Shown here: in pieces, positions 420 through 63,858 of the stretch | Position numbering within the stretch: the stretch's first letter is position 1 | How the letters are laid out: each line of letters starts with the position of its first letter | Source: Cryobacterium ruanii | GTDB taxonomy: Bacteria; Actinomycetota; Actinomycetes; Actinomycetales; Microbacteriaceae | NCBI RefSeq assembly: GCF_004404055.1 | Contig: NZ_SOHK01000023.1 | Location: 1-64,000 of the forward strand | Length of the DNA stretch: 64,000 nt | Reading direction: 5' to 3' | The notes under the pieces: model-generated | Told to the model about the DNA's origin: nothing | The model's database searches: none | Seen by the model: the letters and a program-made list of their open reading frames with translations, nothing else | Translations under genes and position numbers: made by a program

Positions 420-983
420 TCAGGGTTCGGGGGCGAACGCCACGAATAGTTCGCTCACGGAGTTGTAGTACTGGTCGGTGCGGCCCTGATGTGTCATGCC
501 GACGCGCAGGCATACCCGCTGTGACGGTCGGTTGTTCGGGGTCGTGACGGCCACGACCCGATCGAGACCGGTCTTCCAGCCTTCGGCCAGCACAGCGGAT
601 GCCGCTTCGGTCGCGTAGCCCTGGTGCCACGCGTTCGGGTGAAAGTGCCAGCCGATCTCGGTGTCCCCCGACGGCTCCATCGGGGTGACAGCGCTCGACG
701 CGGGGATGGACTTCAGCAGCAGGTTGCCGAAGATCTCACCGGTGTCGGCGTCCGTCACCGCCCGGATGGCATGAATGGGATGCTCCATTCCCTGCCAGCG
801 CTTGATCACGGCGATTGCCTCGGCGCGTTCGGTCATCACCCGCGGGTGCAGTCCGATGTGTTGTTGCACAGACCACAGGGAGTACAGCCCGAAGACGAAG
901 TCGGTGTCATCGAGGGTCCAGGGGCGCAGCAGCAGGCGTTGGGTTCGGAGAGTTTCCACGTCGACATCTTGCCACCCGAGCAT
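420..983 (-). CDS. GNAT-family N-acetyltransferase
   Basis: The 187-residue protein has the layout of the RimJ/RimL-like GNAT branch. It begins with a TLRTQRLLLRPW strand typical of the family and ends with the acetyl-CoA-binding portion, including NAWHQGYATEA, a variant of the Q/RxxGxG/A pyrophosphate loop, and a later NxxSxRVCLRVGM segment that matches the usual NxxSxxxxEKxGF. These enzymes transfer an acetyl group to an amine on a small molecule or a protein N terminus; the substrate cannot be read from sequence. I chose ATG at 983 because AGGAGG lies 5 nt upstream. A TTG 15 bases earlier has no such support. It lies between tyrS and the rRNA leader, on the same strand as tyrS but probably a separate unit. 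Confidence 0.85.
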   Translation of the reverse strand: MLGWQDVDVETLRTQRLLLRPWTLDDTDFVFGLYSLWSVQQHIGLHPRVMTERAEAIAVIKRWQGMEHPIHAIRAVTDADTGEIFGNLLLKSIPASSAVTPMEPSGDTEIGWHFHPNAWHQGYATEAASAVLAEGWKTGLDRVVAVTTPNNRPSQRVCLRVGMTHQGRTDQYYNSVSELFVAFAPEP

Positions 984-1128
984 CCGCGCCTCCTGCAACC
1001 GGGCCGTTCTTCAGTGAAGCCGGCCGGTCCACAAACCCGTGGCGGCGGCAGGATTATTCGCGGAGTTGCGAGTTATGTCTGAGCGGGGAGCTGATGACCC
1101 TGTCGCCGCCGTTGCACCACCGCAAGAG

Positions 1129-2430
1129 CTATTCGACGAAGATGCCCGCGAGCGTCTTCTTGCCGCGACGCAGCACTGCTACTCCCCCGGGCAACACAGA
1201 TCCTTCGATGGTCAGGTCGACACTCGTGACCTTTTCGTTGTTCAGGTAGACCCCACCCTGCTGCACGGCACGTCGGGCATCACCGAGGCTCTTCGACAGC
1301 TCGGTGTCGACGAGTAGCTGCAGCACGGTCGCGTGCGGCGCCGTTGTCGTGTTCGGCAGTTCGCGCAGCGCAGCCTCGAGGGTGTCGGGGTCAAGTTCGG
1401 CGAGGTCGCCTTGGCCGAACAGGGCCTCGGCGGCGTGGATGGCAGCATCCGTCGCAGCTTGCCCGTGCACGAGGCTGGTCACCTCGAGGGCGAGCCGGCG
1501 CTGCGCCTCGCGGCGGAACGGTTCGTTTTCGACGAGTTCGGCGAACCCCTCAATCTCCAAGCGCGACAGAAACGTGAAGACCTTGAGCCGAAAGACCACG
1601 TCGGCATCGTCGGTGTTGAGCCAGAACTGGTAGAAGGCATAGGGGCTCGTGAGGTTCGGGTCGAGCCACACCGCGTTCCCCTCGCTCTTACCGAACTTGG
1701 TGCCGTCGCTGTTGGTGATGAGCGGGGTGCCGATGGCATGCACGGTGCCGCTTTCAGCGCGACGAATGAGGTCGGTTCCGCTCGTGAGGTTGCCCCATTG
1801 GTCGCTTCCGCCGGTTTGCAGCACACAGCCGTAGCTCCGGAACAGCTCGAGGTAGTCGAGGCCCTGCAGAATCTGGTAGCTGAATTCGGTATAGCTGATG
1901 CCGGCGTCGGAATTGAGACGAGCGCTGACGGCATCCTTTTTGAGCATGGTACCCACGCGGTAGTACTTGCCGATTTCGCGCAAAAAGTCGATGGCGCTCA
2001 AGGGCGCGGTCCAGTCCAAGTTGTTCACGAGCGTGACGGCGTTGTCGCCCTCGGAGCTCAGGAACCGCGAGACCTGCGCCTGCAGGTAACCGACCCATTC
2101 GGCGACGGTGTCGGTGGGAGTCAGCGTGCGCTCGGCGGTGGGTCGCGGGTCGCCGATGAGTCCGGTGGAGCCGCCGACCAGGCCGAGCGGATGATGCCCC
2201 GCCAGTTGCAGGCGCCGCATCAGCAGCAGCTGTACCAGGTTGCCGAGGTGCAGGCTCGACGCGGTCGGGTCGAATCCGCAGTAGTACGTGATCGGGTCAC
2301 CATCGAGCAGCGCTTTGAGCTCGGTCGCGTCGGTGGAGACGTGCACGAGGCCGCGCCAGTTGATCTCCTCCCAGACGGAATCGAAGGAGGGATCATTGGT
2401 CTGCTGGGCGAGGATGGCGGGGTCTGACAC
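1129..2430 (-). CDS. tyrS: tyrosyl-tRNA synthetase
   Basis: TyrS charges tRNA-Tyr with tyrosine in the cytoplasm. At 433 residues it has the normal bacterial length. The class I signatures are present: HLGN in FDPTASSLHLGN (HIGH equivalent) near residue 60, the GGSDQWGN tyrosine/tRNA-binding segment, and KFGKSEG (KMSKS equivalent). The C-terminal region with DARRAVQQGGVYLN is an S4 RNA-binding domain. The start is GTG at 2430. No SD precedes it, but TAATCT lies six bases upstream, so the mRNA may be leaderless. It is transcribed toward the acetyltransferase gene. Confidence 0.97.
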   Translation of the reverse strand: MSDPAILAQQTNDPSFDSVWEEINWRGLVHVSTDATELKALLDGDPITYYCGFDPTASSLHLGNLVQLLLMRRLQLAGHHPLGLVGGSTGLIGDPRPTAERTLTPTDTVAEWVGYLQAQVSRFLSSEGDNAVTLVNNLDWTAPLSAIDFLREIGKYYRVGTMLKKDAVSARLNSDAGISYTEFSYQILQGLDYLELFRSYGCVLQTGGSDQWGNLTSGTDLIRRAESGTVHAIGTPLITNSDGTKFGKSEGNAVWLDPNLTSPYAFYQFWLNTDDADVVFRLKVFTFLSRLEIEGFAELVENEPFRREAQRRLALEVTSLVHGQAATDAAIHAAEALFGQGDLAELDPDTLEAALRELPNTTTAPHATVLQLLVDTELSKSLGDARRAVQQGGVYLNNEKVTSVDLTIEGSVLPGGVAVLRRGKKTLAGIFVE

Positions 2431-2436
2431 GCGTTC

Positions 2437-2442
2437 AGATTA
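2437..2442 (-). promoter_or_regulatory. -10 hexamer of putative leaderless tyrS promoter
   Basis: TAATCT on the minus strand, followed by 6 nt and the GTG start of tyrS. The position fits transcription starting at the start codon. No clear -35 was identified. Confidence 0.45.
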
Positions 2443-2522
2443 CCAGCCGGGGGCGTCTTGCCGAATTGCCGGCAACATCCGCTCGCAGGCCGCAGGGATT
2501 CAGGCTAGAGACTGAAGCTGGG

Positions 2523-2551
2523 TTGATTTAGCCTGTAGGCTCAATTACACT
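2523..2551 (+). promoter_or_regulatory. promoter of the SatD-like gene with a dyad in the spacer
   Basis: TTGATT (2523-2528) and TACACT (2546-2551) are separated by exactly 17 bp, a good sigma-70-type promoter. The spacer holds the dyad AGCCT-GT-AGGCT (2530-2541), which could be an operator. The expected start is about 18 bases before the ATG at 2576. Confidence 0.6.
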
Positions 2552-2575
2552 GAATGCAGGACGGAGCCTCACACC

Positions 2576-3223
2576 ATGTTTGTCATCACCGCTGACCAGA
2601 TCGACAGCCGCAATGATCACGATCGTGCGCGCGAGATGATCGCTCACTTGGTGGCGCAGAACCAACACGCGTTCAGCTTGCCGCCCGACCAGACCGCGGG
2701 TGACGAGATTCAGCTGCTGGTGTCGGCTGCCGGCCCGGCGCTCGACGCGATCCTCGCCCTGCACCGTTCCGGCCACTGGAGCATCGGGCTCGGCGTGGGA
2801 ACCGTGCGCACCCCCCTGCCGGCTTCGACCCGACAGGCCACCGGTGACGCGTTCATCGCGGCACGCGATGCCGTGCTGCGGGCGAAGAAGACCGAGGCCC
2901 ATTTCGCGCTCGAGCCGGGTCGAACGGATGCTGCCGCCCCCGGCATCGAAGCGCTCCTCACCATGCTTCTGCTGTTGCGTCAACGGCGCACCCCCCAGGG
3001 GTGGCAGGCCGGCGACCTGTTCGAGCGCGGACTGCCCCAGACGGATATCGCTGCACAGCTCGGCATCACCACCGGAGCAGTGAGCCAGCGGCTCAAGGCA
3101 GCACAGTACCGCGTCGAGCAGGCGGCGCGACCGGCGTTGGCTAGGCTGCTGGAGCAGCTTGATGTTTGCCCGAACGTTGCCACGAACGAAACGGCCAAAA
3201 TCGAAACGGAAAGCAGGCCATGA
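2576..3223 (+). CDS. SatD-like DNA-binding protein
   Basis: The 215-residue protein starts with MFVITADQIDSR, a motif I associate with SatD-family proteins. After an alpha/beta region it ends in a helix-turn-helix-like segment (GLPQTDIAAQLGITTGAV, about residues 150-170) typical of sequence-specific DNA binding. The family is poorly characterised; satD was named from an acid-tolerance locus of Streptococcus mutans. A strong promoter with an internal dyad precedes the gene, so self-regulation is possible but is inference. The stop codon overlaps the next gene's start (ATGA at 3220-3223), so the two proteins are probably made together. Confidence 0.7.
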   Translation: MFVITADQIDSRNDHDRAREMIAHLVAQNQHAFSLPPDQTAGDEIQLLVSAAGPALDAILALHRSGHWSIGLGVGTVRTPLPASTRQATGDAFIAARDAVLRAKKTEAHFALEPGRTDAAAPGIEALLTMLLLLRQRRTPQGWQAGDLFERGLPQTDIAAQLGITTGAVSQRLKAAQYRVEQAARPALARLLEQLDVCPNVATNETAKIETESRP

Positions 3224-3819
3224 CCTTCACCATTCTCACGTTCCTATACTGGGTCGCGCTGCTCCTGGTCACGCTCGCCTCGCTCACCTTCGCGGCAATC
3301 GCGTTCAAATTGCACCGCCAGCTGTACGCGATCGCCGCCACGGCGGGCCTTGCCGTTGCCCTCGTGCTCGCCGCCGTTCCGGTCGGACCCGGTCCGAGCG
3401 CCTTCGGCATCGTGCTCGGAATGCTCGCCCTCGCCCTCGCCGTGATCGGCGGTGGCCCGGCAGCGGTACTCGCCCTCGATCTCGCGACCAACAACTCGGT
3501 GCCGCCGGGCCAGCACGGCGGAATTATGGTGCTCAACGCCGGCAAACCGGCCCCCACCATGGCCGGAGTGAGCAACGCTGACACCCACGAGGTGCTGCGC
3601 GGCGGGGTGACCATCGGTATCCTGGAGCGTCTCGCCGTGGCCGGCGCGATTCTGGCCGGTTTTCCCGAGGCGATCGCCGTGGTCGTGGCCATCAAGGGCG
3701 TTGGCCGGTTCACGGAGCTTGCCGCGGCCGAGTCCCGCGAACGGTTTATCATCGGCACCCTGTCAAGTCTCACCTGGGCCTGCGCCTGCGCTGCGCTCGT
3801 GCCGATGGCCCTGGTCTAG
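3220..3819 (+). CDS. hypothetical multi-pass membrane protein
   Basis: The 199-residue protein has about five hydrophobic segments: three near the N terminus up to about residue 90 and two near the C terminus. The C-terminal part (GILERLAVAGAILAGFPEA, then GRFTE, then FIIGTLSS) resembles the end of DUF3307-type membrane proteins, which are often found beside SatD-like genes. I chose the ATG at 3220 because it overlaps the SatD stop as ATGA and follows an A/G-rich stretch. A start 54 bases upstream would only add an out-of-context tail. Function is unknown; the pairing suggests a regulator-membrane partner unit. Confidence 0.7.
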   Translation: MTFTILTFLYWVALLLVTLASLTFAAIAFKLHRQLYAIAATAGLAVALVLAAVPVGPGPSAFGIVLGMLALALAVIGGGPAAVLALDLATNNSVPPGQHGGIMVLNAGKPAPTMAGVSNADTHEVLRGGVTIGILERLAVAGAILAGFPEAIAVVVAIKGVGRFTELAAAESRERFIIGTLSSLTWACACAALVPMALV

Positions 3820-3887
3820 GTGATCTTTTCGGCACGTGCGCGCTTGGCCGCGTGCCGTCGATATGGCGAAACGGATGCCTCTCCCGG

Positions 3888-3909
3888 CACCCGGAACCTT
3901 CCCCGGGTG
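3888..3909. terminator. putative bidirectional terminator
   Basis: CACCCGG and CCGGGTG form a 7-bp stem with an 8-nt loop between the convergent membrane-protein gene and argH. There is no U tract, so this is a weak call. Confidence 0.3.
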
Positions 3910-3979
3910 AGCACCGCGCCGAGCAGCAGCGGGGCGACCTCGAGTGCGGGTCGATCGAGCACGCCCGGCGCGAGCGACA

Positions 3980-5425
<1,446 letters not shown>

Positions 5426-6625
5426 CTACTTGCTGGTGGCGTCGCGGCGAGCCGCGATCTTGCTCGGCAGCGACCACAGTTCGATGAATCCCTTGGCCAT
5501 GGACTGGTCGAAGGAGTCACCGGTGTCGTAGGTGGCGAGGTTGAAGTCGTACAGGCTGGTCGTGCTGGAGCGGCCGGTGACGACGGCGGAGCCGGCGTGC
5601 ATTTTCAAGCGGATGTCGCCGGTCACGTGCTTCTGCGTGTCCTCGATGAACACGTCGAGGCTCTTCTTCAGACCCGAGAACCAGAGGCCGTCGTAGACGA
5701 GCTCGGCCCACTTGCTCTCGACGCCGCGCTTGTAGCGGGCGACGTCACGTTCGACGGTCATGTTCTCGAGCTCTTCGTGCGCGGCAATCAGAGCGATACC
5801 GGCTGGAGCCTCGTAGATCTCGCGACTCTTGATGCCGACGAGACGGTCCTCGACGATGTCGATGCGACCGACCCCCTGGTCGCCGGCGAGACGGTTCATG
5901 AGCTGGATCATCTGCAGCGGGGTGACCTTCTTGCCGTCAATGGCGACGGGCACTCCCTGTTCGAACGAGATGACGACCTCGGTGGGGGCGCGCGTGACCG
6001 ACGGATCCTGGGTGTAGGTGTAGAGGTCTTCGATCGGCGCGTTCCACGGGTCTTCGAGGAATCCGGTTTCAACGGCGCGACCCCAGACGTTCTGATCAAC
6101 CGAGTATGGGCTCTTCTTGGACTGCACGATGGGCAGGTCGTGCTTGGCGGCATACTCGATGGCTTTGTCGCGGGTCAGCGCGAAGTCGCGCACCGGGGCG
6201 AGCGAGGTCAGGTCTGGCGCGAGGGCCGCGACGGCCGCCTCGAACCGCACCTGGTCGTTGCCCTTGCCGGTGCAGCCGTGGGCGACGCTGTCGGCACCGA
6301 GTTCCTTGGCAGTCGAGGCGAGGTACTTGGCGATGAGCGGACGACTGATGGCCGAGACGAGCGGGTAGCGCTTCTGGTACAGGGCGTTCGCCTTGAGCGT
6401 CGGCACGATGTAGTCGTTCGCGAACTCGTCCTTGGCGTCGATGACGATGGATTCGACGGCGCCGCAGTCGAGGGCGCGCTGACGGATCACGTCCATGTCT
6501 TCGCCCTCCTGTCCGACGTCGACGGCGAGGGCTACGACCTCTTTGCCGGTGGCATCCTTGAGCCAGCCGATGCCGACCGAGGTATCCAGTCCACCCGAGT
6601 ATGCGAGTACAACGCGTTCCGCCAT
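5426..6625 (-). CDS. argG: argininosuccinate synthase
   Basis: ArgG joins citrulline and aspartate using ATP. The 399-residue protein begins with [12 protein letters not shown], the N-type ATP-pyrophosphatase SGGxDS-like loop. It also has the [13 protein letters not shown] segment that binds ATP and aspartate. The ATG at 6625 is preceded by AGGGAG. The 56-bp gap upstream contains TAAACT, a possible -10 for an internal promoter ahead of argGH. In many actinobacteria argR sits between argF and argG; here there is no room for it. Confidence 0.97.
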
Positions 6626-7645: not shown

Positions 7646-7727
7646 GAGCGGATGCCGCTCTCCCCGTTGATAGCCCCCGCGCCGGCAAAACCCGCGCAAA
7701 GTGGGATTCGCCCAGCCTAGAGGCTGG
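7646..7727 (-). other. argD-argF intercistronic hairpins
   Basis: Two perfect small stems lie here: GAGCGG-ATG-CCGCTC at 7646-7660 and CCAGCC-TAGA-GGCTGG at 7712-7727, the latter spanning the argD stop. Neither has a U tract. They could adjust mRNA stability or read-through between argD and argF. Confidence 0.3.
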
Positions 7728-8898
7728 CCAGGGCGCGCCCGAACCGCTCCGCGAAGTCGACGAGTTCGGCGTCGCCGATGATCAACGGCGGGGCGATGCG
7801 AATACTGGTCTCGTTAGCGGCGTTCACGATGAGGCCGTTGGCGAAAGCGGCAGCGGCCAGTTTTAGCGCAACCGGTTCGGTCAGGCCGACGCCGAGCAGC
7901 AGGCCACGTCCGCGTACCTCGTCGATCAGTGGTGAGTTAAAGGCGAGAATGATCTCGCGCAGCTGCTGGCCACGACGGGCGGCGTTGGCGGCGAGGTCGT
8001 CACGTTCGATCACGCCGAGCACGGCGTTGGCGGTCGCGGTGACGAGCGGGTTACCGGCGAAGGTCGAGCCGTGCTGGCCGCGGCTAAACAGCAGGGAGGC
8101 CCAACCGAAGGTGACGAGTGCACCGATGGGGACACCGCCGCCCATCCCTTTGGCGATGGTGACGGCATCCGGAAGGATGTCGTCGTGGTTGTAGGCGAAC
8201 CAGGCGCCTGTGCGGGCGATGCCGGTCTGGATTTCGTCGAGGATGAGCAGCACGCCGTGCTCGGTGCACAACTCGCGGGCGCGCTTCAAAAAACCCTCGG
8301 GCAGGTCGATGACGCCCGCCTCGCCCTTGACCGGCTCCAGGAACAGGGCGGCGACGGTGTTGTCGATGGTCGCTTCGAGCGCTTTGATCGTGGTGTCGAT
8401 GTGTTCGACACCGCCGGGCACCGGTTCGAAAGCCTCACGCATGTGCGGTTTGCCGGAGAGGGCGAGCGCGCCCATCGTACGACCGTGAAAAGAGTCGTGC
8501 AGTGAGATGATGCGGGTGCGGTGGCCCGTGTTGTTGAGCCTGGCCAGTTTGAACGCGGCCTCGTTGGCCTCGGCGCCGGAGTTGCAGAAGTACACGCGGC
8601 CAGCCGAGCCCGCACCGGTGATGCGCTTGAGGCGCTCGGCCAGTTCAATCTGCGGCGGCGTGGCGAAATAGTTGGAGACGTGGCTGATCGTGCCGATCTG
8701 CTTCGTCACGGCCGACACGACCTCGGGGTGGGCGTGGCCGAGCGAATTCACGGCGATACCGGCGAGAAAATCGAGGTATTGCGTGCCCTGGTCATCCCAG
8801 ACGTAGCAGCCCTCCCCGCGCACGAGCATGGCCAGCGGCGGACTGAAGGTGCGCATCATCGAGTCGGCGAACCGGTTCTGCCAGGAAACTTCAGTCAT
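7717..8898 (-). CDS. argD: acetylornithine aminotransferase
   Basis: ArgD converts N-acetylglutamate semialdehyde to N-acetylornithine with PLP. The 393-residue class III aminotransferase shows [17 protein letters not shown] (PLP phosphate contact), [14 protein letters not shown] (PLP ring), and the Schiff-base lysine in [11 protein letters not shown]. Its ATG at 8898 overlaps the argB stop as ATGA, giving tight translational coupling. The same enzyme often also serves DAP synthesis as succinyl-DAP aminotransferase; dapA, dapB and dapF lie elsewhere in this window, so a dual role is possible. Confidence 0.96.
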
Positions 8899-9809
8899 GC
8901 GGGTACTACCTCCGTGCCAATGCCGCTTCCAGTGAAAATTTCGAGCAGGATCGAGTGCGGCACTCGCCCATCGATGATCGCAGCCTTGGCCACGCCGCCG
9001 TCGACGGCGTCGAGACAGGCCGTCATCTTGGGGATCATGCCCGATTCCAGCTCGGGCAGCAGGTCGCGCAACTCGACCACGTCGATGATCGAAACGAGCG
9101 AATCCCGATTCGGCCAGTCGCGGTACAGCCCGGCCACGTCGGTGAGAATCACGAGCTTCGCCGCGCCGAGCGCGATCGCGAGGGCGGCAGCAGCAGCGTC
9201 GGCGTTGACGTTGAGGGACTGGCCCGGAACATCCGTATCGGGAGCGATCGAGGAGACCACGGGAATGCGGCCGGCCGCGAGTTGCGCGAGCACCGCTTCG
9301 GGGTCGACGCCGATGACGTCGCCGACCAGTCCGAGGTCGACCTCTTCGCCGTCGATGATCACCCCGCGGCGCCGCCCGCGGAACAGGCCGGCGTCTTCAC
9401 CGGAGAGTCCGGCGGCGAGCGGGCCATGCTGGTTGATGTGACTGACCAGGTCGCGATTGATCTGGCCGGTGAGCACCATGCGCACCACGTCCATCGCCTC
9501 GGGCGTAGTCACCCGGTAGCCGCCACGAAATTCGCTCTCGATACCCAGGCGCGCCAGCATGGATGAGATCTGCGGACCGCCGCCGTGCACGACGACCGGG
9601 CGGATGCCCGCGTACCGCAGGTAGACCATGTCTTCGGCGAAGGCACGCTGCAGGTCTTCGCTCACCATGGCGTTGCCGCCAAACTTCACGACGATGATCT
9701 GGTCGTGAAAACGCTTGAGCCATGGCAGCGCTTCAATCAGCGTTGCCGCTTTAACGGATGCCTCGGCCTGGCTGGTTTCGTCGGCGCTGGTACTCAGTTT
9801 CTCGGTCAT
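8895..9809 (-). CDS. argB: acetylglutamate kinase
   Basis: ArgB phosphorylates N-acetylglutamate and is usually the arginine-feedback step. The amino acid kinase fold is visible: VVKFGGNAM near residue 40, [13 protein letters not shown] near 70, and LTDVAGL near 210. I chose the ATG at 9809, which follows the argJ stop by two bases and gives 304 residues. A longer frame would begin inside argJ with an implausible basic tail. The stop overlaps argD as ATGA. Confidence 0.96.
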
Positions 9810-9811
9810 GA

Positions 9812-10993
9812 TCAGCTCGAGTACGCGCTGTTCTCTTCGACGTAGTCGTGGGTGAGGTCGTTGGTCCACAGGGTGGCCGTTTCGCTACCGGCGTGCAGGT
9901 CGATGAGCACAGTCACGCCGCGGCCCGAGAGGTCGACAAGGTCGCGCGGCTGGTCCGGCTCGCCCGCGGTGCACACCTGCACGCCGTTGATGGCAACATC
10001 GATGCCGTAGGGGTCGAAGGCGGCGTCCTTGACCGGCACGGTTCCGGCGGCGGCGAGCACGCGGCCCCAATTCGGGTCGTTGCCGAAGATGGCCGACTTG
10101 AACAAATTGCTGCGCGAGACCGCGCGGGCCACGGTGACGGCTTCGTCTTCGGAGACCGCGTTGGTGACCGTGATCGCCACGTCGTGCGCGGCGCCCTCGG
10201 CGTCGCCCTGCAGCTGCAGCGTGAGGTCGCGACAGATTTCGACGAGCGCCGCCGTGAATTCGGTCAGGTCGGCGGCAACGCCGCTCGCGCCGGAGCACAG
10301 CAGGCTCACGGTGTCGTTGGTCGACATGCAGCCGTCGGAGTCGAGGCGGTCGAAGGTGACCCGGGTGGCCGCGTGCAGGGCCGTGTCCAGTTCGGCCGAC
10401 TCGAGCACGGCGTCGGTCGTGATGACGACGAGCATGGTGGCGAGCCCGGGCGCGAGCATGCCGGCGCCCTTGGCCATGGCGCCGATGCTCCAGCCGGCGG
10501 GCGACTCGTGCGACGCCTGCTTCGGACGAGTGTCGGTGGTCATGATGGCCTGCGCGGCCAGAAGGCCGGCGGCGGGCGTGGTGGCGGCATCCGCTTTGAT
10601 GGCGAGGGTGGCTTCAAAGACGCCCGCGGTAACGAGGTCGAGGTCGAGCTGTTCGCCGATCAGGCCGGTCGAACAAACCAGAACGTCGCCCGCGGAGATG
10701 TTGAGGCGGGTCGCGACGGCTTCGGCAGTGGCGTGGGTAATCTGAAAGCCGATGCTGCCGGTGTAGCAGTTGGCGCCGCCGGAGTTCAACACGATCGCGC
10801 TGACACGGCCGTCGCTCATGACCTGGGTGCTCCAGATGACCGGGTTGGCCTGGCAGCGGTTGCTCGTGAACACGGTGGCGGCGTTCTGCAGCGGGCCAAG
10901 GTTCTGCACGAGGGCGAGGTCGAGCCCGCCGGACTTCTTCAGGCCGGCGGTGACGCCGGCAGCGGCAAAACCGGCGGGAAGGGTGACACTCAC
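9812..10993 (-). CDS. argJ: bifunctional ornithine acetyltransferase/N-acetylglutamate synthase
   Basis: ArgJ recycles acetyl groups between acetylornithine and glutamate. The 393-residue precursor is cut by itself into two chains at the Ala-Thr bond in GLATMLVV, which puts the nucleophile at about Thr186. KGAGMLAP just before it is the usual context. The C-terminal chain contains [17 protein letters not shown]. The start is GTG at 10993 and overlaps the argC stop as GTGA. I cannot tell from sequence whether it has both activities or only transacetylation. Confidence 0.96.
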
Positions 10994-12170: not shown

Positions 12171-12220
12171 CAGCGGATGCCGCGGGCCGACCCCGAGAGG
12201 GCGACTTGCGGCATCCGCTG
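12171..12220 (-). terminator. pheST terminator hairpin built from the CGGATGCC motif
   Basis: A perfect 13-bp inverted repeat, CAGCGGATGCCGC (12171-12183) with GCGGCATCCGCTG (12208-12220), has a 24-nt loop. It lies just beyond the pheT stop and upstream of argC. No U tract follows, as in many actinobacterial terminators. Both arms contain the recurrent CGGATGCC octamer. Confidence 0.6.
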
Positions 12221-12247: not shown

Positions 12248-14851
12248 CTACTCGCGCAGGGTTGCACCGAAGCGCTCGGCGGCGACCGCGACGCCGGCCA
12301 GGCGGGCAGCGCTCGCCTCGGCGGCGGTCAGCGTGCGTTCCTCTCGGCGAAAACGCAGCGCGAAGGTAAGCGACTTCTGGCCGGGTTCGACGCCGGCACC
12401 GCGGTAATCGTCGACCAGTTCGATGCTCTCGAGCAGGTCGGCGGCGCCCTCGGCGACGGCCGTGCGCACGGCGGCAGCCGGCACGGAGGCCGCGACGACG
12501 AGGGAGAGATCCTGTGTGGCCGCCGGCATCGTGCGGATCGGCGTGACCGTGAGGTCCCCGTCAGCCTGCGCGAAGACCAACCCGAGGTTGATCTCGGCGA
12601 CGGCGACGACGGTGGGCAGGTCATAGTCGTCGGCGACTGCGGGAAGCAGCTCGCCGGCGAATCCAACCGACACCGTCGAGGCGGCGGCGGTCGCGGCGGC
12701 AACCGTGACGAACAGCTCGGCGGTGCGCCCCGGGTGCATCGCCGGGTGCCGGCCCTGGCGCACCTCGATGCGCACGCCGGTGGCCAATGCCAGCTGCTGC
12801 ACGGCGGCCAACGCCGACTGCCAGCCAGCGGCAACCGCGGGCAAGGCCGGCTGGTGCCGCACATCGTTGCCGACGAGAACGACGCCGACCAGCAGCGGCT
12901 GCGGCACAATTCCGGTATTCAGTGCCGCCTCAGCCTCGGTGCTCGGACGCTCGGCCCCGGCCGGCAGCACTACCGTGCCGTAGGTCACCCCGACCTCGGG
13001 GCGGAAGACCAGTCCCTGCTCGTAGATGGCGACGTCGACCAGTCCGCGTGAACGGTTGCGGTGCGCGATCTGCAACAGGCCCGGCAGCATCGAGGTGCGC
13101 AGGAACGGCGCCTCGCCGTCGAGCGGGTTGGCGACCTTCATCTGCGGTACCGGAACCGGGGCAGCGGATGCCGCGTCGGCCATGGGCGCGCCGGCATCCG
13201 TTTGAGTCGACATCACGGCCACACCAAACAGGTTGTTTGCCCGCTCCGAAACGAACGGGTAGGTGAGCACCTCGGTGTGCCCGGTAGCGGCCAGGGTCTG
13301 CGCGACGGTACGGCGCAGCGTCTGCGTGCGGGTCAGGCCGCGGCCGGGCGGGGCGACGGGCAACACGGAGGGGATGCGGTCGTAGCCGACGATGCGTGCG
13401 ACCTCCTCGGCGAGGGTCCACTTGTCGGTGAGGTCGGGGCGCCAACTCGGCGGGGTCACCTGCAGGTCGCCATCGGCTTCGACCAACGAAGCACCGACGT
13501 CGACCAGGGCATCACGCACCTCGTCGTCGGTGTAGGCGAGGCCGATAAGGCCAGACACGAACCCGGTCGGCAGGAGAATCGGCTGCGGGGCCGGAGCCTC
13601 GTCGTAGACCGATCCGAGGTCGTCGGCGACTCCTCCGGCAAGGTCGACGAGCAGCTGCACCACGCGGGCGGCGGCAACGGCAGCAACGCGGGGGTCGACG
13701 CCGCGTTCGAACCGCTTGCTCGCCTCGCTCGGCAGCTTGTGGCGGCGGGCAGAGCGTGCGATCGACACCGGGTCGAAGTTGGCCGCCTCGACGAGCACGT
13801 TGACGGTCTGCGTGGTGATCTCGGTGCTCGCCCCACCCATCACGCCGGCCAGGCCGATCGGCCCGGATTCGTCGGTGATCAAGAGATCCTCGACGTTGAG
13901 CGTGCGAGAGACCGCGTCGAGCGTCGTGAATTTCTCCCCAATGGTCGCGCGCCGCACGATGATTCCGCCGGCCAACTTGTCGAGGTCGTAGCCGTGCAAC
14001 GGCTGGCCGAGCTCGAACATCACATAGTTGGTGACGTCGACGATGAGGGAGATCGAGCGGATGCCGACCAGCCCGAGCCGAGCGATCATCCACGCCGGGG
14101 TCGGGCGGGTCGGGTCGACCCCGCGCACGACGCGGGTGACGAACACGGTCGCGCCGGTTTGCTCGCGAATCGGAGCCTGATCGTCGATCGTCACGGGGAA
14201 AAGGGTGACCGGCGCCACGACCGTCAGGGCGAGCGCGGGGTCGCGAAACGGCACTCCGGTGGCGTGCGAGTATTCGCGGGCGACGCCGCGAATGGAGAAC
14301 GCGTAGCCGCGGTCGGGGGTGACGTTGATCTCGACGGCGCTGTCATCGAGACCGAGCAGGGCGATCGCATCCGTTCCGACCGGGGCATCGATGCCGAGGT
14401 TCTTCAGCAGCAGAATTCCGTCGTGCTCGTCTCCGAGTCCGAGTTCGCGGGCCGAAGCGATCATGCCGTCGGACGTGTGGCCGTAGGTCTTTCGGGCGGC
14501 GATGGGAAACGGTCCTGGCAGCGAGGCGCCGGGCAGGGTCACGACGACCTTATCGCCCACGGCGAAGTTGTGAGCTCCGCAGATGATGCCATGCACGGCC
14601 GGGCCGTCGTCAGCGGCGAGTTCACCATCGGGTGCAACTTGCACCTGGCACCAGTTGATGGTCTTGCCGTTGGTCTGCTCTTCGCCGACGAATTCGAGTA
14701 CCTCGCCGACCACGATCGGGCCGGACACCTCGAATCGGTGGATGTCTTCCTCTTCGAGGCCGACGCTCACGAGTGCGGCGTGCACGTCTTCCGGCGTGGT
14801 GCCGGGCGCGAGGTCGACGAATTCGCCGAGCCAGCTCAGTGGTACCCGCAT
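12248..14851 (-). CDS. pheT: phenylalanyl-tRNA synthetase beta subunit
   Basis: PheT pairs with PheS in an alpha2-beta2 enzyme that charges tRNA-Phe. The 867-residue protein has the expected order: an N-terminal tRNA-binding (EMAP-like) domain, B3/B4 editing domain, B5 DNA-binding-like fold, core catalytic-like domain, and a C-terminal anticodon-binding domain ending near FRREERTLT. An Ala/Pro-rich linker between about residues 545 and 570 looks like an insertion; its DNA holds an inverted pair of the CGGATGCC octamer. The ATG at 14851 overlaps the pheS stop by one base (TAATG), so the subunits are coupled. Confidence 0.96.
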   Translation of the reverse strand: MRVPLSWLGEFVDLAPGTTPEDVHAALVSVGLEEEDIHRFEVSGPIVVGEVLEFVGEEQTNGKTINWCQVQVAPDGELAADDGPAVHGIICGAHNFAVGDKVVVTLPGASLPGPFPIAARKTYGHTSDGMIASARELGLGDEHDGILLLKNLGIDAPVGTDAIALLGLDDSAVEINVTPDRGYAFSIRGVAREYSHATGVPFRDPALALTVVAPVTLFPVTIDDQAPIREQTGATVFVTRVVRGVDPTRPTPAWMIARLGLVGIRSISLIVDVTNYVMFELGQPLHGYDLDKLAGGIIVRRATIGEKFTTLDAVSRTLNVEDLLITDESGPIGLAGVMGGASTEITTQTVNVLVEAANFDPVSIARSARRHKLPSEASKRFERGVDPRVAAVAAARVVQLLVDLAGGVADDLGSVYDEAPAPQPILLPTGFVSGLIGLAYTDDEVRDALVDVGASLVEADGDLQVTPPSWRPDLTDKWTLAEEVARIVGYDRIPSVLPVAPPGRGLTRTQTLRRTVAQTLAATGHTEVLTYPFVSERANNLFGVAVMSTQTDAGAPMADAASAAPVPVPQMKVANPLDGEAPFLRTSMLPGLLQIAHRNRSRGLVDVAIYEQGLVFRPEVGVTYGTVVLPAGAERPSTEAEAALNTGIVPQPLLVGVVLVGNDVRHQPALPAVAAGWQSALAAVQQLALATGVRIEVRQGRHPAMHPGRTAELFVTVAAATAAASTVSVGFAGELLPAVADDYDLPTVVAVAEINLGLVFAQADGDLTVTPIRTMPAATQDLSLVVAASVPAAAVRTAVAEGAADLLESIELVDDYRGAGVEPGQKSLTFALRFRREERTLTAAEASAARLAGVAVAAERFGATLRE
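13165..13200. repeat. inverted pair of CGGATGCC octamers inside pheT
   Basis: CGGATGCCG at 13165-13173 and CGGCATCCG at 13192-13200 form a 9-bp stem within the coding sequence of an Ala/Pro-rich linker. It has the same arm sequence as the intergenic terminators at 12171 and 22288. Confidence 0.5.
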
Positions 14852-22273: not shown

Positions 22274-22287
22274 CCCACTTCCCGACG

Positions 22288-22330: not shown

Positions 22331-22352
22331 GTTCCCCCGGCAGCAGCTCGAG

Positions 22353-50635: not shown

Positions 50636-50671
50636 GCCGGCGGGAGCGGCCTTCGAATGCCGCGCGCCGGC
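50636..50671 (-). terminator. putative terminator of the ABC exporter operon
   Basis: Nested stems GCCGGCG...CGCCGGC and GCGGC...GCCGC follow the permease stop and precede the ftsK promoter. No U tract; a GGCATCCG octamer overlaps the 3' arm. Confidence 0.55.
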
Positions 50672-50697
50672 ATCCGTTTGCGGCGTCGTGGCCGGCA

Positions 50698-52616: not shown

Positions 52617-53671
52617 CGGGAGATCCCGGTGCTCGAGATGCTGGGGCTGAAGCAGACCTCGCTGCCGTCGGGCTGAAGTTCGCAGCCCGAGCCGCCGCCG
52701 ACGACGGCACCGGGAACGAACTGGTTGATCAGGTCACCCGCGACGAGTCCGTCGATGACTTGCACGTTGACGCCGTCGGTCATGCCGAGCGTAACCGGGC
52801 GTTCTTCGGTACCGCCGTCGGGCAGCACGAACCAGACAACGCCGGTTTCGGCGGAGCCCTTCACAGCGGTGGTAGGCACCACGAGCACGTTCTCGGCCAG
52901 CCCGGCGGCGATGGTGATCTGCGCGGCCAGGCCGGAGAAGACGGTCACCTCGGCCGGAATCGCGCAGGTCACAGTGGTGCCGCTCGTGCCGTTCTCTCCG
53001 CCGGTCCCGCCGTCACCGCCGACCTGGGCACCAGCCAGCGGGGTGGTGATGGTCAGGCCGGTGCAGGTGAACGGCGCCGGCCCGTTCGTGATCGCAACGG
53101 ATGCCTCGGTCGGCCTGGTCAGCAGCCGATACTGCTGCTCGGGGCTGAGCGCTCCGCTCACCGAGAAGCTCGGTGGCGCGACCTGTCCGGTGGCATCTCC
53201 CACGGCCACGCTCTGGCCGTGGATCACAGTGAGCGAGCTGAGGATGCCGGTGATCGGGGCAAGGACCCTGACGAAGGTGACCACCGGTTTCGGTTGGGTA
53301 ATAGTGACGTTGCCATCGGCACCCGTTGTTTCGACGGGGTCCTTGATCGTTTCGACCCGGATGTCGTAGATCTTGTCGTCTTTGTTCACGGCCTGGCCGG
53401 ACGCCACGAAGATCTCATCGACCGTGCCGATGGCGGTCGCTTTGACGGCGACGGCCGGATCGGCGCTGACCGTGCCGGGTAGGGTCACGTCGTTGCTGAT
53501 GGTGCCGAGGCCCACCGGAATCTGCGGTTCAACGATGACACCGGTCGGTTCGGCGGGATTGCTGTCGGCGGCAGCGTCTGGGTAGAACGCGAGCTTCACG
53601 AGAGCTACGGCGATCGCGGCAATGACGATCAGTCGAAGGATTGGAAAGACCCATTTGCGTGCAATGTTCAC
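52613..53671 (-). CDS. HlyD/MacA-like membrane-anchored adaptor
   Basis: The 352-residue protein has one N-terminal helix (about residues 8-28), a lipoyl/barrel-sandwich region with VDEIFVASGQAVNKDDKIYDI, and a beta-barrel region (VLVVPTTAVKG) as in HlyD-type adaptors. It lacks a long coiled-coil hairpin, as is common in Gram-positives. The insert GGDGGTGGENGTSG is an unusual glycine-rich stretch near residue 220. I prefer GTG at 53671 because GGGGAG precedes it; GTG at 53683 is possible. Confidence 0.8.
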   Translation of the reverse strand: MNIARKWVFPILRLIVIAAIAVALVKLAFYPDAAADSNPAEPTGVIVEPQIPVGLGTISNDVTLPGTVSADPAVAVKATAIGTVDEIFVASGQAVNKDDKIYDIRVETIKDPVETTGADGNVTITQPKPVVTFVRVLAPITGILSSLTVIHGQSVAVGDATGQVAPPSFSVSGALSPEQQYRLLTRPTEASVAITNGPAPFTCTGLTITTPLAGAQVGGDGGTGGENGTSGTTVTCAIPAEVTVFSGLAAQITIAAGLAENVLVVPTTAVKGSAETGVVWFVLPDGGTEERPVTLGMTDGVNVQVIDGLVAGDLINQFVPGAVVGGGSGCELQPDGSEVCFSPSISSTGISR

Positions 53672-53883: not shown

Positions 53884-56046
53884 ATGCGCGGGTCACTGGT
53901 TCGGGGAACTATCGCTGTGACAATCGGCGGTCTGTTGCTCGCCGGGCTGACGCCCCATGCGCAGGGCGCGGCGGCCGCCAGCAAGACGATCGACGTACCA
54001 GATCCCTACAGCCACGGCCTGCGCGTATCCGCGGACTCGAGATACCTGCCCGACCCGATGGTGGTGCCACGGTCGGCACGAAGTATCCGCCTCGACCTGG
54101 CAGACCCAACATTGCTCCTGGATACCGCTTCGTACCGTATTTATGGTGACAACTTTGAAGTGCGGGGAACGGCAACGGTCGGCACTGCGTCGCACAGCAT
54201 CGTGGTGCCCCTCCCGACCGACTTCTTTCAGGTCAGCGCTGGACATTCGCCGATTCGACTTATCGATTCAGCTAAAGACTTCTATGGAATCGAAGTCGAA
54301 GCATCTGGTGCTGCAAACGGGCCGACACCCCCGAGCGAATACGAGCTCCGTCCGGGCGACGGTCGGAGTCATCTCAGTGTCAGCGTCGTCTTCCAGGCGG
54401 GCACGGCGACATCGGACACTCTGGGAGTGTTGGATCTGACCCTCCCGCTCAGTGAGGCCTGGGCCCCGGGCGGTGATCGGACCTACTCGCACAGCGAGGT
54501 CACCTGGACTCCACAAAAGCAGGTTGTCGCTGCAGGCGACACGATAACGCTGGTGGGCGCACCCGGGCAATGGAAAACCAATTTTCGCGGAGAGTCTGTG
54601 AATCCCTACGCAATAGTTTGGTACGCGAATGAAATTGATAACTACAACCAGTTGGACCTTCCGACAGCAACGTCTTTGGACGGTAGCCGTTTGACGATCA
54701 CCATCCCGGAAACGATCGACCGGTATATCTACAACGCACCGCCACGAATTGAGATTTACACCAATACCGGTCCCGAAGGCGAAAACACGGTCGAAACTTT
54801 TGTACCCATCGCTATCAGCTACCGGTCGATCGCTCCCGGAGTGCCTGTTGTGGATTCGGTTCGCGCGGGCAATGGCTTTGTCGATCTGTCTTGGGGGGCA
54901 CCGACCACCGGCGGGAGAGTCGAAACGTACCGGGTTCGGTCGTTCTCCGGCGCCACTGTCGTCAAGACTCAGGTCGTGGCGGGTCGGCTCGATTTCGCAA
55001 CAGTTGTTGGTCTGACCAACGGCAGGCCATACAGCTTCGACGTAACCGCAACGAACGCGTCGGGCAGCGGCGCTCCCTCAGCCCGCACCGCGATCGTTAC
55101 GCCACGAACGGAATTCGTGCCCCCCACGGTCATCAACAAGAATCCTGCGTCCGATGCACGTTCGATCAGCCAAACGGCCAATGTGACCGCGGTCTTCAGC
55201 GAAGCGGTGACGAATGTGAACGCGACCTCTGTTTCGCTTCGGTACGGCACAACGTTGATCCCGGCTGCAGTGACCTACGATTCGGCCACCCGCACCACGA
55301 CGTTGAACCCGACTTCTACGCTGGGCCCAGATCGTCTCTACTCGGCGTTCATCTCGGGCATCCGGGACCTGGCCGGCAACCTCATATCTCCAATGACCTG
55401 GTCGTTCAAAACCGGGCCGGCTCCCACGATCGTGAGTAAAACGCCGACGAGCGGTGCAAACTCGGTCGCACAAACGTCAAATGTCTCGATAGTCTTCAGC
55501 GAACCGGTGACCAAGGTCTCTGGAGCCTCGATTTCGCTGCGGCGCGCAGGCGCCGTCATCCCGGCGACGATCACCTACAATTCCGTCACACGAACGGCCC
55601 TCCTGAACCCCTCTTCGACACTGTCAGCGGATGTCGTGTACACGGTTGATGTGACGGGGGTGCTCGACGCAGTCGGCAACCCGCTCGTTGCTACGACCTG
55701 GTCGTTCACGACGGGCCCGGCTCCGTCCGTTCTGAAAACCGCGCCGGCAAGCGGCGCAACGACCGTTCAGCGTACCGTCAGCCCTACAGCCACTCTCAGC
55801 GAGACGATCACAGGCTACACTTCGGCAACCGTGCGCGTCACTCAAGCGGCCACAGGCGCCGCCATCGCCGCAAGTGTGTCCTTCAATTCGACTTCAAAGA
55901 TTCTGACGGTGAATCCATCTTCGATCTTGGCGGCGAACACGAAATATCTGGTGACGATCACCGGAGGGACTGGTGCCGTCCGAGACTTGGCCGGCAACCC
56001 GCTGGCAACCAAAACCTGGACCTTTACCACGGGAAGCAGCCTTTAG
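53884..56046 (+). CDS. secreted FN3/Ig-like domain protein
   Basis: The 720-residue protein has a signal peptide (positively charged start, hydrophobic core, cleavage near AQGAAAA around residue 30). An unrecognised beta-rich region to about 315 is followed by an FN3 domain (about 318-407) and three homologous domains of about 100 residues (about 413-511, 513-611, 613-717) of the SbsA/Big_5 Ig-like kind, each ending in TWSF/TFTTG. There is no LPXTG motif or membrane anchor. It is probably an extracellular adhesin or wall-associated protein. ATG at 53884 has GAGAGG upstream. It diverges from the exporter genes and uses more A/T than its neighbours. Confidence 0.8.
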   Translation: MRGSLVRGTIAVTIGGLLLAGLTPHAQGAAAASKTIDVPDPYSHGLRVSADSRYLPDPMVVPRSARSIRLDLADPTLLLDTASYRIYGDNFEVRGTATVGTASHSIVVPLPTDFFQVSAGHSPIRLIDSAKDFYGIEVEASGAANGPTPPSEYELRPGDGRSHLSVSVVFQAGTATSDTLGVLDLTLPLSEAWAPGGDRTYSHSEVTWTPQKQVVAAGDTITLVGAPGQWKTNFRGESVNPYAIVWYANEIDNYNQLDLPTATSLDGSRLTITIPETIDRYIYNAPPRIEIYTNTGPEGENTVETFVPIAISYRSIAPGVPVVDSVRAGNGFVDLSWGAPTTGGRVETYRVRSFSGATVVKTQVVAGRLDFATVVGLTNGRPYSFDVTATNASGSGAPSARTAIVTPRTEFVPPTVINKNPASDARSISQTANVTAVFSEAVTNVNATSVSLRYGTTLIPAAVTYDSATRTTTLNPTSTLGPDRLYSAFISGIRDLAGNLISPMTWSFKTGPAPTIVSKTPTSGANSVAQTSNVSIVFSEPVTKVSGASISLRRAGAVIPATITYNSVTRTALLNPSSTLSADVVYTVDVTGVLDAVGNPLVATTWSFTTGPAPSVLKTAPASGATTVQRTVSPTATLSETITGYTSATVRVTQAATGAAIAASVSFNSTSKILTVNPSSILAANTKYLVTITGGTGAVRDLAGNPLATKTWTFTTGSSL

Positions 56047-58594: not shown

Positions 58595-59066
58595 GACACC
58601 GCGCCCTATGCTCGATCCGCGCGGGCCCCGCTTTGGCGCAGGCCTCACGGGCGTGCTGTTGCTCGTGGTGGTGTTTCTCGCGCTCACCGGGGCATCCGCC
58701 GCCGCACTGGCCCTTCTGGCCGTGATCACCGCGCTCTTCGCGTGGGGTGCGTTGGCCGGCGCCGGTCGGCATCCGTACGGCGTTCTCTTCAAAAAGTTCG
58801 TGCGGCCGCGCCTCGCGCCGCCGACGGAGCTCGAAGACGCTGCCCCGCCCACCTTCGCGCAGGGCGTCGGCCTGGCCGTGACCCTCGTCGGCCTCGTTCT
58901 GGGACTGGTAGGAGTGCCCGGCGCTGTTGGAATCGCTGCGGCCGCCGCGTTCGCCGCTGCCTTTCTGAACGCGGTCTTCGACTACTGCCTCGGCTGCCAG
59001 ATCTACCTGCTGCTCCTGCGCTTCGGCGTGCTCAACCGGGGTGGCAGAACGGTCGAGAACGTCTGA
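58587..59066 (+). CDS. DUF4395 membrane protein
   Basis: The 159-residue protein has about four membrane helices. A DYCLGCQIY segment near the C terminus carries a CxxC pair, which would suit electron exchange with the preceding thioredoxin-like protein. ATG at 58587 has AGGGG upstream and lies inside the end of the thioredoxin gene. Function unknown. Confidence 0.8.
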   Translation: MSRTPRPMLDPRGPRFGAGLTGVLLLVVVFLALTGASAAALALLAVITALFAWGALAGAGRHPYGVLFKKFVRPRLAPPTELEDAAPPTFAQGVGLAVTLVGLVLGLVGVPGAVGIAAAAAFAAAFLNAVFDYCLGCQIYLLLLRFGVLNRGGRTVENV

Positions 59067-61772: not shown

Positions 61773-61778
61773 GAAACC

Positions 61779-62443: not shown

Positions 62444-62505
62444 TGTCCATTTCGAAGATCGGGAGCCCGGCTGGGCCGGTTAGTGCAGAAGCAGGTGGCA
62501 GCCGG

Positions 62506-63858
62506 TCAGCCAGGGAAGATCGCCGCGAACGCGTCGTCCTCGAGGGCTCCGACGGCGGCGATCGACACCGGACCGCTGACGAGCTCGCCGGCGAGCGCCT
62601 GCACGTCGGCCGCAGTGACGAGCGCGAGGCGCCGCAGGGCTTCGTCGAGGTCAGCGAACTCGCCGAGGGTAATTTCGGAGCGGCCCAGCCGGGACATACG
62701 GGTGTCCGAGTCTTCGAGTGCGAGAGCGGATGCCCCACTCAACTGTCCAGACGCCCGCTTCATCTCGTCGGCGGTCACCCCGCCATCGGCAAGCCGGCGC
62801 AGTTCGCTGAGCATGAGCTCGGCAACCTGGCCGGCCTTGGCCGGAGTGCACCCGGCATACATACCAAACAGGCCGGCGTCTGAGTAGCCGGGCGCGAACG
62901 AATACACGGAGTAGGCCAGGCCGCGCTTCTCCCGCACTTCCTGAAACAGGCGACTCGACATACCCCCGCCGAAGATGGAGGTGAGTACGCTCATCGCAAC
63001 GCGGCGGTCATCAGTCGCCAACAGGCCGGGCATGCCGAGCAGCAGATTCGCCTGCTCCAGCGGGCGTTTGACGATGGTCAGGGCCTGGCCCTGGTGAATC
63101 TGGGCTGGCGCACCGCCACGACGACCGACCGGAGTCTGGGCGATGCTGAGGTCCCAGCCGGCGCGTTCGAGGGCCCGGGTAACGGCGGCGAGGAGCCCAT
63201 CGTGGTCGACGGCACCGGCAACAGTGACGACGAGGTCCTGAGGTCGATAGTTGGCCTGGTAGTGCTCCCACACGGCCGTGCGGGTGGCGCCCCGAATGTC
63301 GTCTGCGCTGCCGCCGATCGGGCGGCCGAGCGGATGCCTACCGAGCACGGCTTCGAAGAACCGCTCATTGGCGACGTCGGACGGGTCGTCATCGGCCATG
63401 GCGAGTTCCTCGAGAATAACGCCGCGCTCGGTTTCGAACTCATCGGCATCCAGTTTTGAGGAGGTAAGCATGTCGGTGAGCACGTCGATCGCCATGCCAA
63501 GGTCGCGGTCCTGCACCTTGGCGTAGTAACAGGTGTATTCCTTGGCGGTCATGGCGTTGTGCTCGCCGCCGACCGCGTCGAACGAGATTGCTATGTCGAG
63601 GGCCGACCGCGTTGCCGTTCCCTTGAACAGCAGGTGCTCGAGAAAGTGTGTGGAGCCGAAATGGCCCGGCTGTTCGTCACGCGACCCGACGGCGACCCAA
63701 TAGCCAATGGTGACGCTGCGTGCACCCGGAACCTGCTCGCTGAGAATGCGCACGCCGCTCGGTAGAACGGTGCGACGCACGAGGGCATCGCCGGCGGCCC
63801 GAAACGAAAGTTCGGCCTGGTCTAGGGGAAAGTCGACTGCACCGTTCATATCATTCAT
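62506..63858 (-). CDS. M16 family zinc peptidase
   Basis: The 450-residue peptidase has the inverted zinc motif HFLEH near residue 70 (HxxEH), followed by the distal Glu (about 75 residues later) in ERGVILEELAMADD. It has both M16 halves on one chain. In Microbacteriaceae it normally follows pnp, which would lie to the right. I chose ATG at 63858; 63849 is also possible, and the upstream frame is unlikely. Confidence 0.88.
   Translation of the reverse strand: MNDMNGAVDFPLDQAELSFRAAGDALVRRTVLPSGVRILSEQVPGARSVTIGYWVAVGSRDEQPGHFGSTHFLEHLLFKGTATRSALDIAISFDAVGGEHNAMTAKEYTCYYAKVQDRDLGMAIDVLTDMLTSSKLDADEFETERGVILEELAMADDDPSDVANERFFEAVLGRHPLGRPIGGSADDIRGATRTAVWEHYQANYRPQDLVVTVAGAVDHDGLLAAVTRALERAGWDLSIAQTPVGRRGGAPAQIHQGQALTIVKRPLEQANLLLGMPGLLATDDRRVAMSVLTSIFGGGMSSRLFQEVREKRGLAYSVYSFAPGYSDAGLFGMYAGCTPAKAGQVAELMLSELRRLADGGVTADEMKRASGQLSGASALALEDSDTRMSRLGRSEITLGEFADLDEALRRLALVTAADVQALAGELVSGPVSIAAVGALEDDAFAAIFPG

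Follow-up and report, generated by a model that had tools for sequence, protein, structure and literature searches.

What keeps one short word far above its expected frequency along an actinobacterial chromosome? The question is raised by a 64,000-nucleotide stretch of Cryobacterium ruanii (Microbacteriaceae; contig NZ_SOHK01000023.1, positions 1 to 64,000, C14:1-64000 in our numbering), here called the window and part of a 3.37-Mb genome, in which the octamer CGGATGCC recurs throughout. The octamer belongs to a longer, non-palindromic 10-mer, AGCGGATGCC, that is in large excess across the genome and is spelled into genes against codon use, and a related word with different flanks is found in many other genera. 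The best single explanation is that it is probably a DNA uptake sequence maintained by transformation drive.

The word and its excess

There are 39 exact copies of CGGATGCC in the window, 23 on the plus strand and 16 on the minus strand, compared with a mean of 5.69 (standard deviation 2.39, maximum 12) in 100 dinucleotide shuffles. The initial annotation had described this over-representation in both orientations and had even understated it; all 38 of its listed positions are real, although one (10585) should read 10586 and a copy at 55357 was missed. The flanks are also constrained, with A at position -2 in 25 of the 39 copies, G at -1 in 24, A at -1 in 11, and G at +8 in 24, so that the fuller word behind the octamer is A[G/A]CGGATGCC(GC). 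Extension of most copies to GCGGATGCC had likewise been noted, and is seen in 24 of 39. The 10-mer AGCGGATGCC is present 17 times where 0.25 are expected, and it is sharp, since its two-mismatch neighbours are at expectation (102 versus 101.6); its one-mismatch neighbours sum to 41 (7.8 expected). It differs from its own reverse complement. The sites in the window are listed here.

594 to 603, plus: full motif AGCGGATGCC
3870 to 3879, plus: full motif AACGGATGCC
7647 to 7656, plus: full motif AGCGGATGCC
8164 to 8171, minus: core octamer CGGATGCC
9601 to 9608, plus: core octamer CGGATGCC
9753 to 9762, plus: full motif AACGGATGCC
10586 to 10595, minus: full motif AGCGGATGCC
12172 to 12219: convergent AGCGGATGCC pair (12172-12181 plus, 12210-12219 minus), intergenic, just downstream of the minus-strand pheT
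13163 to 13202: convergent pair AGCGGATGCC (13163-13172 plus) and AACGGATGCC (13193-13202 minus), within pheT
14056 to 14065, plus: full motif AGCGGATGCC, within pheT
15373 to 15380, minus: core octamer CGGATGCC
15570 to 15577, plus: core octamer CGGATGCC
16526 to 16533, plus: core octamer CGGATGCC
19827 to 19836, minus: full motif AGCGGATGCC
21660 to 21669, plus: full motif AGCGGATGCC
22288 to 22326: convergent AGCGGATGCC pair (22288-22297 plus, 22317-22326 minus), between two facing called genes
24031 to 24038, minus: core octamer CGGATGCC
27915 to 27922, plus: core octamer CGGATGCC
28238 to 28247, minus: full motif AGCGGATGCC
29554 to 29563, plus: full motif AGCGGATGCC
31165 to 31172, minus: core octamer CGGATGCC
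35172 to 35181, minus: full motif AGCGGATGCC
36562 to 36569, plus: core octamer CGGATGCC
36950 to 36957, plus: core octamer CGGATGCC
39540 to 39549, plus: full motif AGCGGATGCC
40470 to 40477, plus: core octamer CGGATGCC
41468 to 41477, minus: full motif AACGGATGCC
47129 to 47136, plus: core octamer CGGATGCC
50669 to 50678, minus: full motif AACGGATGCC
51154 to 51163, plus: full motif AACGGATGCC
53096 to 53105, plus: full motif AACGGATGCC
55357 to 55364, minus: core octamer CGGATGCC, the copy missed earlier
58691 to 58698, minus: core octamer CGGATGCC
58768 to 58775, minus: core octamer CGGATGCC
62725 to 62734, plus: full motif AGCGGATGCC
63329 to 63338, plus: full motif AGCGGATGCC

The excess is genome-wide: AGCGGATGCC occurs 677 times (336 and 341 on the two strands) and the reversed word 30 times (17 and 13), and the corresponding counts for CGGATGCC are 1613 and 172. 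When 427 kb of this genome are compared with an order-4 Markov model, the leading over-represented 8- to 12-mers are the word and its parts, with AGCGGATGCC observed 88 times (3.8 expected) and AGCGGATGCCGC 34 times (0.5 expected). The Markov comparison proposed in the initial annotation thus leaves the excess standing in this part of the genome, and even at order 6, where the counts already hold most of the word, AGCGGATGCC remains at 88 versus 42. For the window alone, a model one order below maximal leaves little residue for the octamer (39 versus 34.6), as is expected where a longer word contributes to the counts of its parts.

The word overrides codon choice

Gene calling relied on a simple method based on codon usage, which missed some genes in atypical DNA. 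Synonymous codons were permuted 40 times within each gene so that proteins and codon counts were kept. These shuffles remove nearly all copies of AGCGGATGCC, leaving 0.7 of 37 in the sense orientation and 2.9 of 33 in the antisense orientation. There are also direct signs in the spelling of short peptides. One example is Ala-Ser-Ala, which is spelled GCA TCC GCT in 24 of 132 instances (0.31 expected) with GCA and GCT being the rarer Ala codons. A second example is GCG GAT GCC, where the preceding codon ends in A in 35 of 38 instances and A occupies about 9% of third positions. The loss on shuffling and these two spelling biases show that the word, on both strands and in several frames, bends codon choice in its own favour. 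Protein sequence alone is therefore insufficient to account for the copies, as the initial annotation had argued, and codon and dipeptide use fail to explain the excess in the 427 kb. Its description of copies in several reading frames and in non-coding DNA also holds, with AGCGGATGCC at 0.203 per kb in coding and 0.196 per kb in intergenic sequence. The same shuffles confirmed an excess in six other genomes and found none in two negative sets, genome G110 and the Arthrobacter group.

Strand, genomic context and turnover of sites

When leading and lagging strands are assigned by GC skew no preference for either is seen, in answer to the strand-skew check suggested with the initial annotation. 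The counts are 173/160 in this genome; four further genomes that show an excess have 131/122, 77/82, 69/72 and 81/105, and the counts are 59/64 and 11/11 in two genomes of the same genus with a weak excess. The strongest strand imbalance among 110 family genomes is in G135 (790/920, 3.1 standard units). Apparent one-strand runs in the lists of site positions were considered as a leading-strand bias and rejected; whole-genome counts are balanced (1135/1096 in G304, although the places listed for it are all plus) and the stretches analysed show no such bias.

The sites are concentrated in core DNA. Core stretches hold 293 merged sites in 297 kb, and AGCGGATGCC is found there 86 times with 1.2 expected (69-fold), whereas in four low-GC atypical stretches (130 kb), which were picked with motif counts in view, there are 2 copies with 0.5 expected (4-fold). 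In 36 bins outside the training stretch, which were not picked in this way, the number of sites rises with codon typicality (rho 0.74). Among ten proteins that were sampled from two of the atypical stretches are glycosyltransferases, an LGFP-repeat protein, oxidoreductases, and proteins of transport and amino-acid degradation.

Sites are gained and lost by point substitution in gapless alignment and are kept above background. The window was compared with six Cryobacterium relatives, using about 60 kb of each (28.8 to 56.5 kb aligned, 87-88% identical where aligned), and 106 of 144 site-by-genome cases could be aligned. The site is intact in 59 of the 106 when the second base may be either G or A and in 50 letter for letter, compared with a fraction of 0.31 for random 10-mers. 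Starting instead from the relatives, 91 of their 111 sites are alignable; the window has 59 of these intact and 19 with a single mismatch. The counts are not independent of one another, as the same 24 window sites enter them repeatedly.

Close inverted pairs

Pairs of sites no more than 60 bp apart were counted in ten data sets from the Microbacteriaceae and from a second family described below. Of 82 close pairs, 48 are convergent, 20 divergent and 14 on the same strand, where 25% convergent pairs are expected, and among the 35 that are mostly intergenic the numbers are 23, 5 and 7. The six Cryobacterium relatives contribute pairs that are partly orthologous to those in the window; without them there are 38 convergent, 20 divergent and 11 same-strand pairs of 69, and 17, 5 and 7 of 29 in the intergenic class. 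The pair at 22288/22317 gives a predicted RNA fold (22286-22336) of -32.9 kcal/mol (z -7.1) that is followed by CUUUUC, and the modelled hairpin appears terminator-like. The pair at 12172/12210 folds at -40.6 kcal/mol (z -4.6), and the fold of the pair inside pheT is weaker (z -2.4).

Distribution and dialects in the Microbacteriaceae

Comparison with other Microbacteriaceae, also suggested in the initial annotation, shows that the excess is widespread in the family. At the MiaB locus the closest named relative of this genome is Cryobacterium glaciale, with 97% identity in protein sequence. All 36 other Cryobacterium genomes have more AGCGGATGCC than reversed word, from 2.2-fold up. A 60-kb sample of G004, of the same genus, has no clear motif excess. 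Among 110 family genomes representing 85 genera, CGGATGCC is more than 5-fold above its reversed word in 54 and more than 2.5-fold in 81, with a maximum of 4,041 copies in 3.9 Mb (1.04 per kb). Some family genomes have no excess (0.37-fold in G110 and 0.6-fold in G154). In 23 genomes of other families in the order there are no more than 30 copies of AGCGGATGCC each, with a ratio to the reversed word that ranges from 0.35 to 2.5 and is less than 1 in 19 of the 23. We note that in stretches of G002 and G067 other abundant repeats outrank the motif among 9- and 10-mers (TGTCGAGACC/GAGCTTGTCG and GTTTCGAGAC/GGTTGAGGAG, respectively), and these look like interspersed palindromic elements resembling repetitive extragenic palindromes.

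A GGATGC core persists across the Microbacteriaceae with genus-specific flanks, which we refer to as dialects. Stretches aligned on GGATGC read AGCGGATGCCGC in Cryobacterium, CGGATGCCGCGG in G199, CCGGATGCCg in G294 and CGGATGCGgt in G177, and the alignment-free top k-mers of the latter three genomes are the same dialect words, core included. Pooled Microbacterium loci (14 of 15, omitting L120 from M. indicum, which has no excess) have the dialect GGATGCCGCG. The stretches from the islands of the C. ruanii genome were left out of the flank alignment. The Micrococcaceae pool comprised 13 of 21 loci, and in these 13 Arthrobacter-type loci GGATGC is at 0.73 of expectation. A MiaB tree was built with 76 rows, namely the window and 75 of 80 loci, five shorter than 9 kb being omitted. 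Enrichment of GGATGC is seen in 23 of 42 Microbacteriaceae and in 3 of 6 rows with no named family, the window among them, but in none of the 21 Micrococcaceae, 3 Intrasporangiaceae, 3 Streptosporangiaceae and 1 Nocardioidaceae. This tree needs at least 12 changes of enrichment, which implies repeated loss or gain.

A related word in a second family

A stretch from Terrabacter (Intrasporangiaceae in NCBI) carries GTATGCCG, which is one base off the Microbacterium form. It is present 1135 and 1096 times on the two strands of the Terrabacter genome, where the reversed word is found 250 times, and no more than 108 times in each of eight other genomes from several families. Of 59 genomes of Terrabacter's family, 29 have GTATGCCG more than 5-fold above the reversed word and 28 have no more than 300 copies; the maximum is 4,724 copies in 4.2 Mb, balanced between strands. 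Stretches of four such genomes show the dialects CGTATGCCG, GGTATGCCGCG, GTATGCCGTG and CGTATGCCGT, which exceed synonymous shuffles in the sense orientation (18-31 observed versus 1.6-3.6), and G318 shows no dialect excess in the same test. The shared ATGCCG core, together with a CG flank that one dialect in each family has in common, suggests, short of proof, a common origin of the words.

Two other short samples contain over-represented words of their own. In 21 kb of Janibacter melonis (L153), CGAAGGGG occurs 23 times (2.8 expected) and GGCGAAGGGG 10 times (0.26 expected); this genome lacks GTATGCCG and may have an iterated word of a different kind. In 21 kb of Nocardioides sp. L161 there are short repeats, with GTCGTGTGCC present 8 times (0.1 expected) and CCGGAGGCGT 10 times (0.3 expected).

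Competence and pilus genes

The C. ruanii genome has a comEA gene adjoining comEC, with HHH and SLBB domains in the ComEA product, as well as a Tad locus that includes TadE and a prepilin peptidase. PilM matches lie at two places, one of them beside PilB and a pilin. The seven called genes of the Tad stretch (positions 1-6000 of a stretch taken from contig C16) contain no motif and the genes to the right of it do; the Tad locus may be a recent arrival or may be constrained. In the actinobacterium Micrococcus luteus, which has comEA and comEC, transformation is described as requiring Flp/Tad pili (PMC6370729), and two Microbacteriaceae with reduced genomes are described as naturally transformable (PMC11577799). 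A type IV pilus marked by PilM was considered as the required machine and rejected; matches are found in 123 of 249 family genomes, a set that does not include the strongly enriched G116, G199 and G184. PilM is also more weakly associated with motif excess than TadE is, and not significantly so in genomes of at least 2.5 Mb, with phylogeny ignored.

What the word may be for

Of the three roles raised in the initial annotation, namely a methyltransferase target, a site for a nucleoid or segregation protein, and an uptake-type sequence, the last is favoured by the lack of strand bias, the override of codon choice, the enrichment in core DNA, the convergent pairs, the dialects, and a copy number like that of the DNA uptake sequences (DUS) of Neisseriaceae and the uptake signal sequences (USS) of Pasteurellaceae. 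Counted on the same side are the retention of sites, the dialects of the second family, the comEA-comEC, Tad and pil genes of this genome, the natural transformability of two other Microbacteriaceae, and a correlation with TadE that has the exceptions given below. In such a system, the transformation machinery would prefer the word on free DNA, and fragments bearing it, mostly from dead kin, would be taken in more frequently and recombined into the chromosome. Any point mutation giving rise to the word would then spread as a by-product of the uptake bias, a form of molecular drive. The word would fill tolerant positions of genes exchanged among kin, in both orientations, and recently acquired islands would remain poor in it. 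Drift in the preference of the receptor would carry the flanks with it, giving genus dialects around cores that stay conserved (GGATGC in the Microbacteriaceae and GTATGCC in Terrabacter's family).

Several observations count against transformation drive or blunt the evidence for it. Preferential binding and uptake, the receptor (perhaps on a Tad/Flp pilus) and the drive itself are all things that we infer, and another driven or selected DNA word could share the same features; for both reasons we rate an uptake sequence as probable and no higher. The polarity test is a proxy, given how weak the GC skew of these genomes is. The intergenic preference described for DUS, as a tendency and not a requirement, is not seen here, and spacing is not regular (coefficient of variation 1.06 versus 0.99 at random), being Poisson-like. 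In the 36 bins the number of sites follows GC content (rho 0.83) as well as codon typicality, and depletion of the islands is partly confounded by it. Convergence of close pairs is missing from two data sets, G116 (1 convergent, 3 divergent) and G294 (0 convergent, 5 same-strand). ComEC matches are found in 245 of 249 family genomes and, being nearly universal, cannot separate motif-rich from motif-poor genomes. Motif excess correlates with the number of TadE matches with phylogeny ignored (rho 0.45, n=110; 0.39 in 84 genomes of as many genera; 0.38 in 85 genomes of at least 2.5 Mb), with median excesses of 2.0, 3.5, 9.0 and 6.8 at 0, 1, 2 and at least 3 matches; however, 4 of 17 genomes with no TadE match exceed 5-fold, and the strongest genome, G116, is outside the PilM group. 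Finally, transformation seems not to require the word, since the transformable members of the family have reduced genomes and only 1 of 18 family genomes below 2 Mb exceeds 5-fold.

It is unlikely, if still worth weighing, that the word is a Chi-like recombination hotspot that is read by a helicase-nuclease such as AdnAB and accumulates in core DNA. The Cryobacterium form begins with AGCGG, which is the Chi sequence of Bacillus subtilis, although AGCGG is absent from other dialects (CCGGATGCC, GGATGCCGCGG), and AdnAB is reported not to read Chi. The convergent hairpin pairs have no known rationale for Chi, and RecC (PF04257) has no match in any of the 110 genomes, with E. coli positive as a control. 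Enrichment in core DNA is likewise reported for Chi, which is, however, polarised on the leading strand (PMC8022716), whereas no replication polarity is seen for the word. Chi in the form read by RecBCD was rejected on the absence of both RecC and polarity.

A slightly smaller chance attaches to a binding site for a protein of chromosome organisation, segregation or phage exclusion (including modification or self-labelling) that is selected site by site. Retention of sites above background and their scarcity in foreign-looking DNA are both compatible with this. However, positions turn over by point mutation (19 of the 91 alignable sites of the relatives are one mismatch away), spacing is random, and keeping roughly one site per kb within genes, contrary to codon use, would be a heavy burden for selection that acts on individual sites. 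A segregation role of the type played by FtsK orienting sequences (KOPS) is opposed by the missing leading-strand polarity, for which GC skew is a weak proxy. A methyltransferase target or a nucleoid-protein site may still be involved, although a target alone offers no known reason for such an excess of a non-palindromic 10-mer.

We regard as improbable a functionless word driven by mutation or repair, for instance through biased gene conversion; this is one view of HIP1 in cyanobacteria. Strand neutrality and occurrence in several frames fit such a process, but a non-palindromic 10- to 12-mer with dialects, convergent pairs and patchy presence is hard to obtain by context-dependent mutation, and the two-mismatch neighbours are at expectation. 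An artefact of codon use, dipeptides or composition can be dismissed, since, even though the reversed-word control contains a TA step and is itself a rare word, and the order-6 expectation is high because the motif is included in the model, it is already refuted by the synonymous shuffles and the order-4 model, by the behaviour of the negative controls (G110, the Arthrobacter group and G318) and by the 23 genomes of other families with at most 30 copies of AGCGGATGCC.

Returning to uptake, the chances appear evenly balanced that the Micrococcales, or at least both of these families, have an ancient sequence-selective transformation system with related words (G[G/T]ATGCC) and genus-specific flanks, perhaps using a Tad/Flp competence pilus. 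To our knowledge, uptake sequences have been described in just two proteobacterial families, and monoderm bacteria are generally regarded as unselective in transformation. No uptake sequence in Actinobacteria was found in the open-licence literature searched, which is weak evidence of absence, and matches for the 10-mer itself were unrelated by title among the matches listed. If the word does act in uptake, this would be the first known uptake-sequence system outside the Proteobacteria and the first in a monoderm phylum, as well as a source of genetic isolation between genera. With two actinobacterial families, dialects and word-less genera, it would provide an independent origin in which to study self-recognition in bacterial sex and the coevolution of receptor and word, and adding the dialect word to DNA may render harmless but hard-to-transform Actinobacteria genetically tractable. 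Even if uptake is the wrong explanation, a 10-mer driven to as much as one copy per kb has to be accounted for.

Comparison with known repeated words

The word and KOPS are both short and repeated, but KOPS are strand-polarised and this word is not, by the proxy of GC skew; we note that there is an ftsK gene in the window (47673-50585). HIP1 of cyanobacteria is similarly highly iterated and ignores codon use, but it is a palindrome, whereas this word is not and has dialect flanks. Chi, the signal for RecBCD or AddAB, is also over-represented in core DNA and differs in its leading-strand polarity, with neither polarity nor RecC seen here. The USS of Pasteurellaceae is, like this word, short and non-palindromic and is found on both strands at about one copy per kb, although the sequences are unrelated and the hosts of USS are diderm. 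The DUS of Neisseriaceae, alongside which USS is named in the same source, are described as 10- to 12-mers present in thousands of copies, accumulated in the core genome and paired at terminators, and as having dialects that share a conserved CTG core and are congruent with the phylogeny of the core genome (PMC3630211). The word described here is unrelated to DUS in sequence, belongs to another phylum, has a merely postulated receptor where DUS has ComP, and is no denser in intergenic than in coding DNA; it resembles DUS in its length of 10 to 12 bases, its copy number, its enrichment in core DNA, its inverted pairs, and its dialects around a short core.

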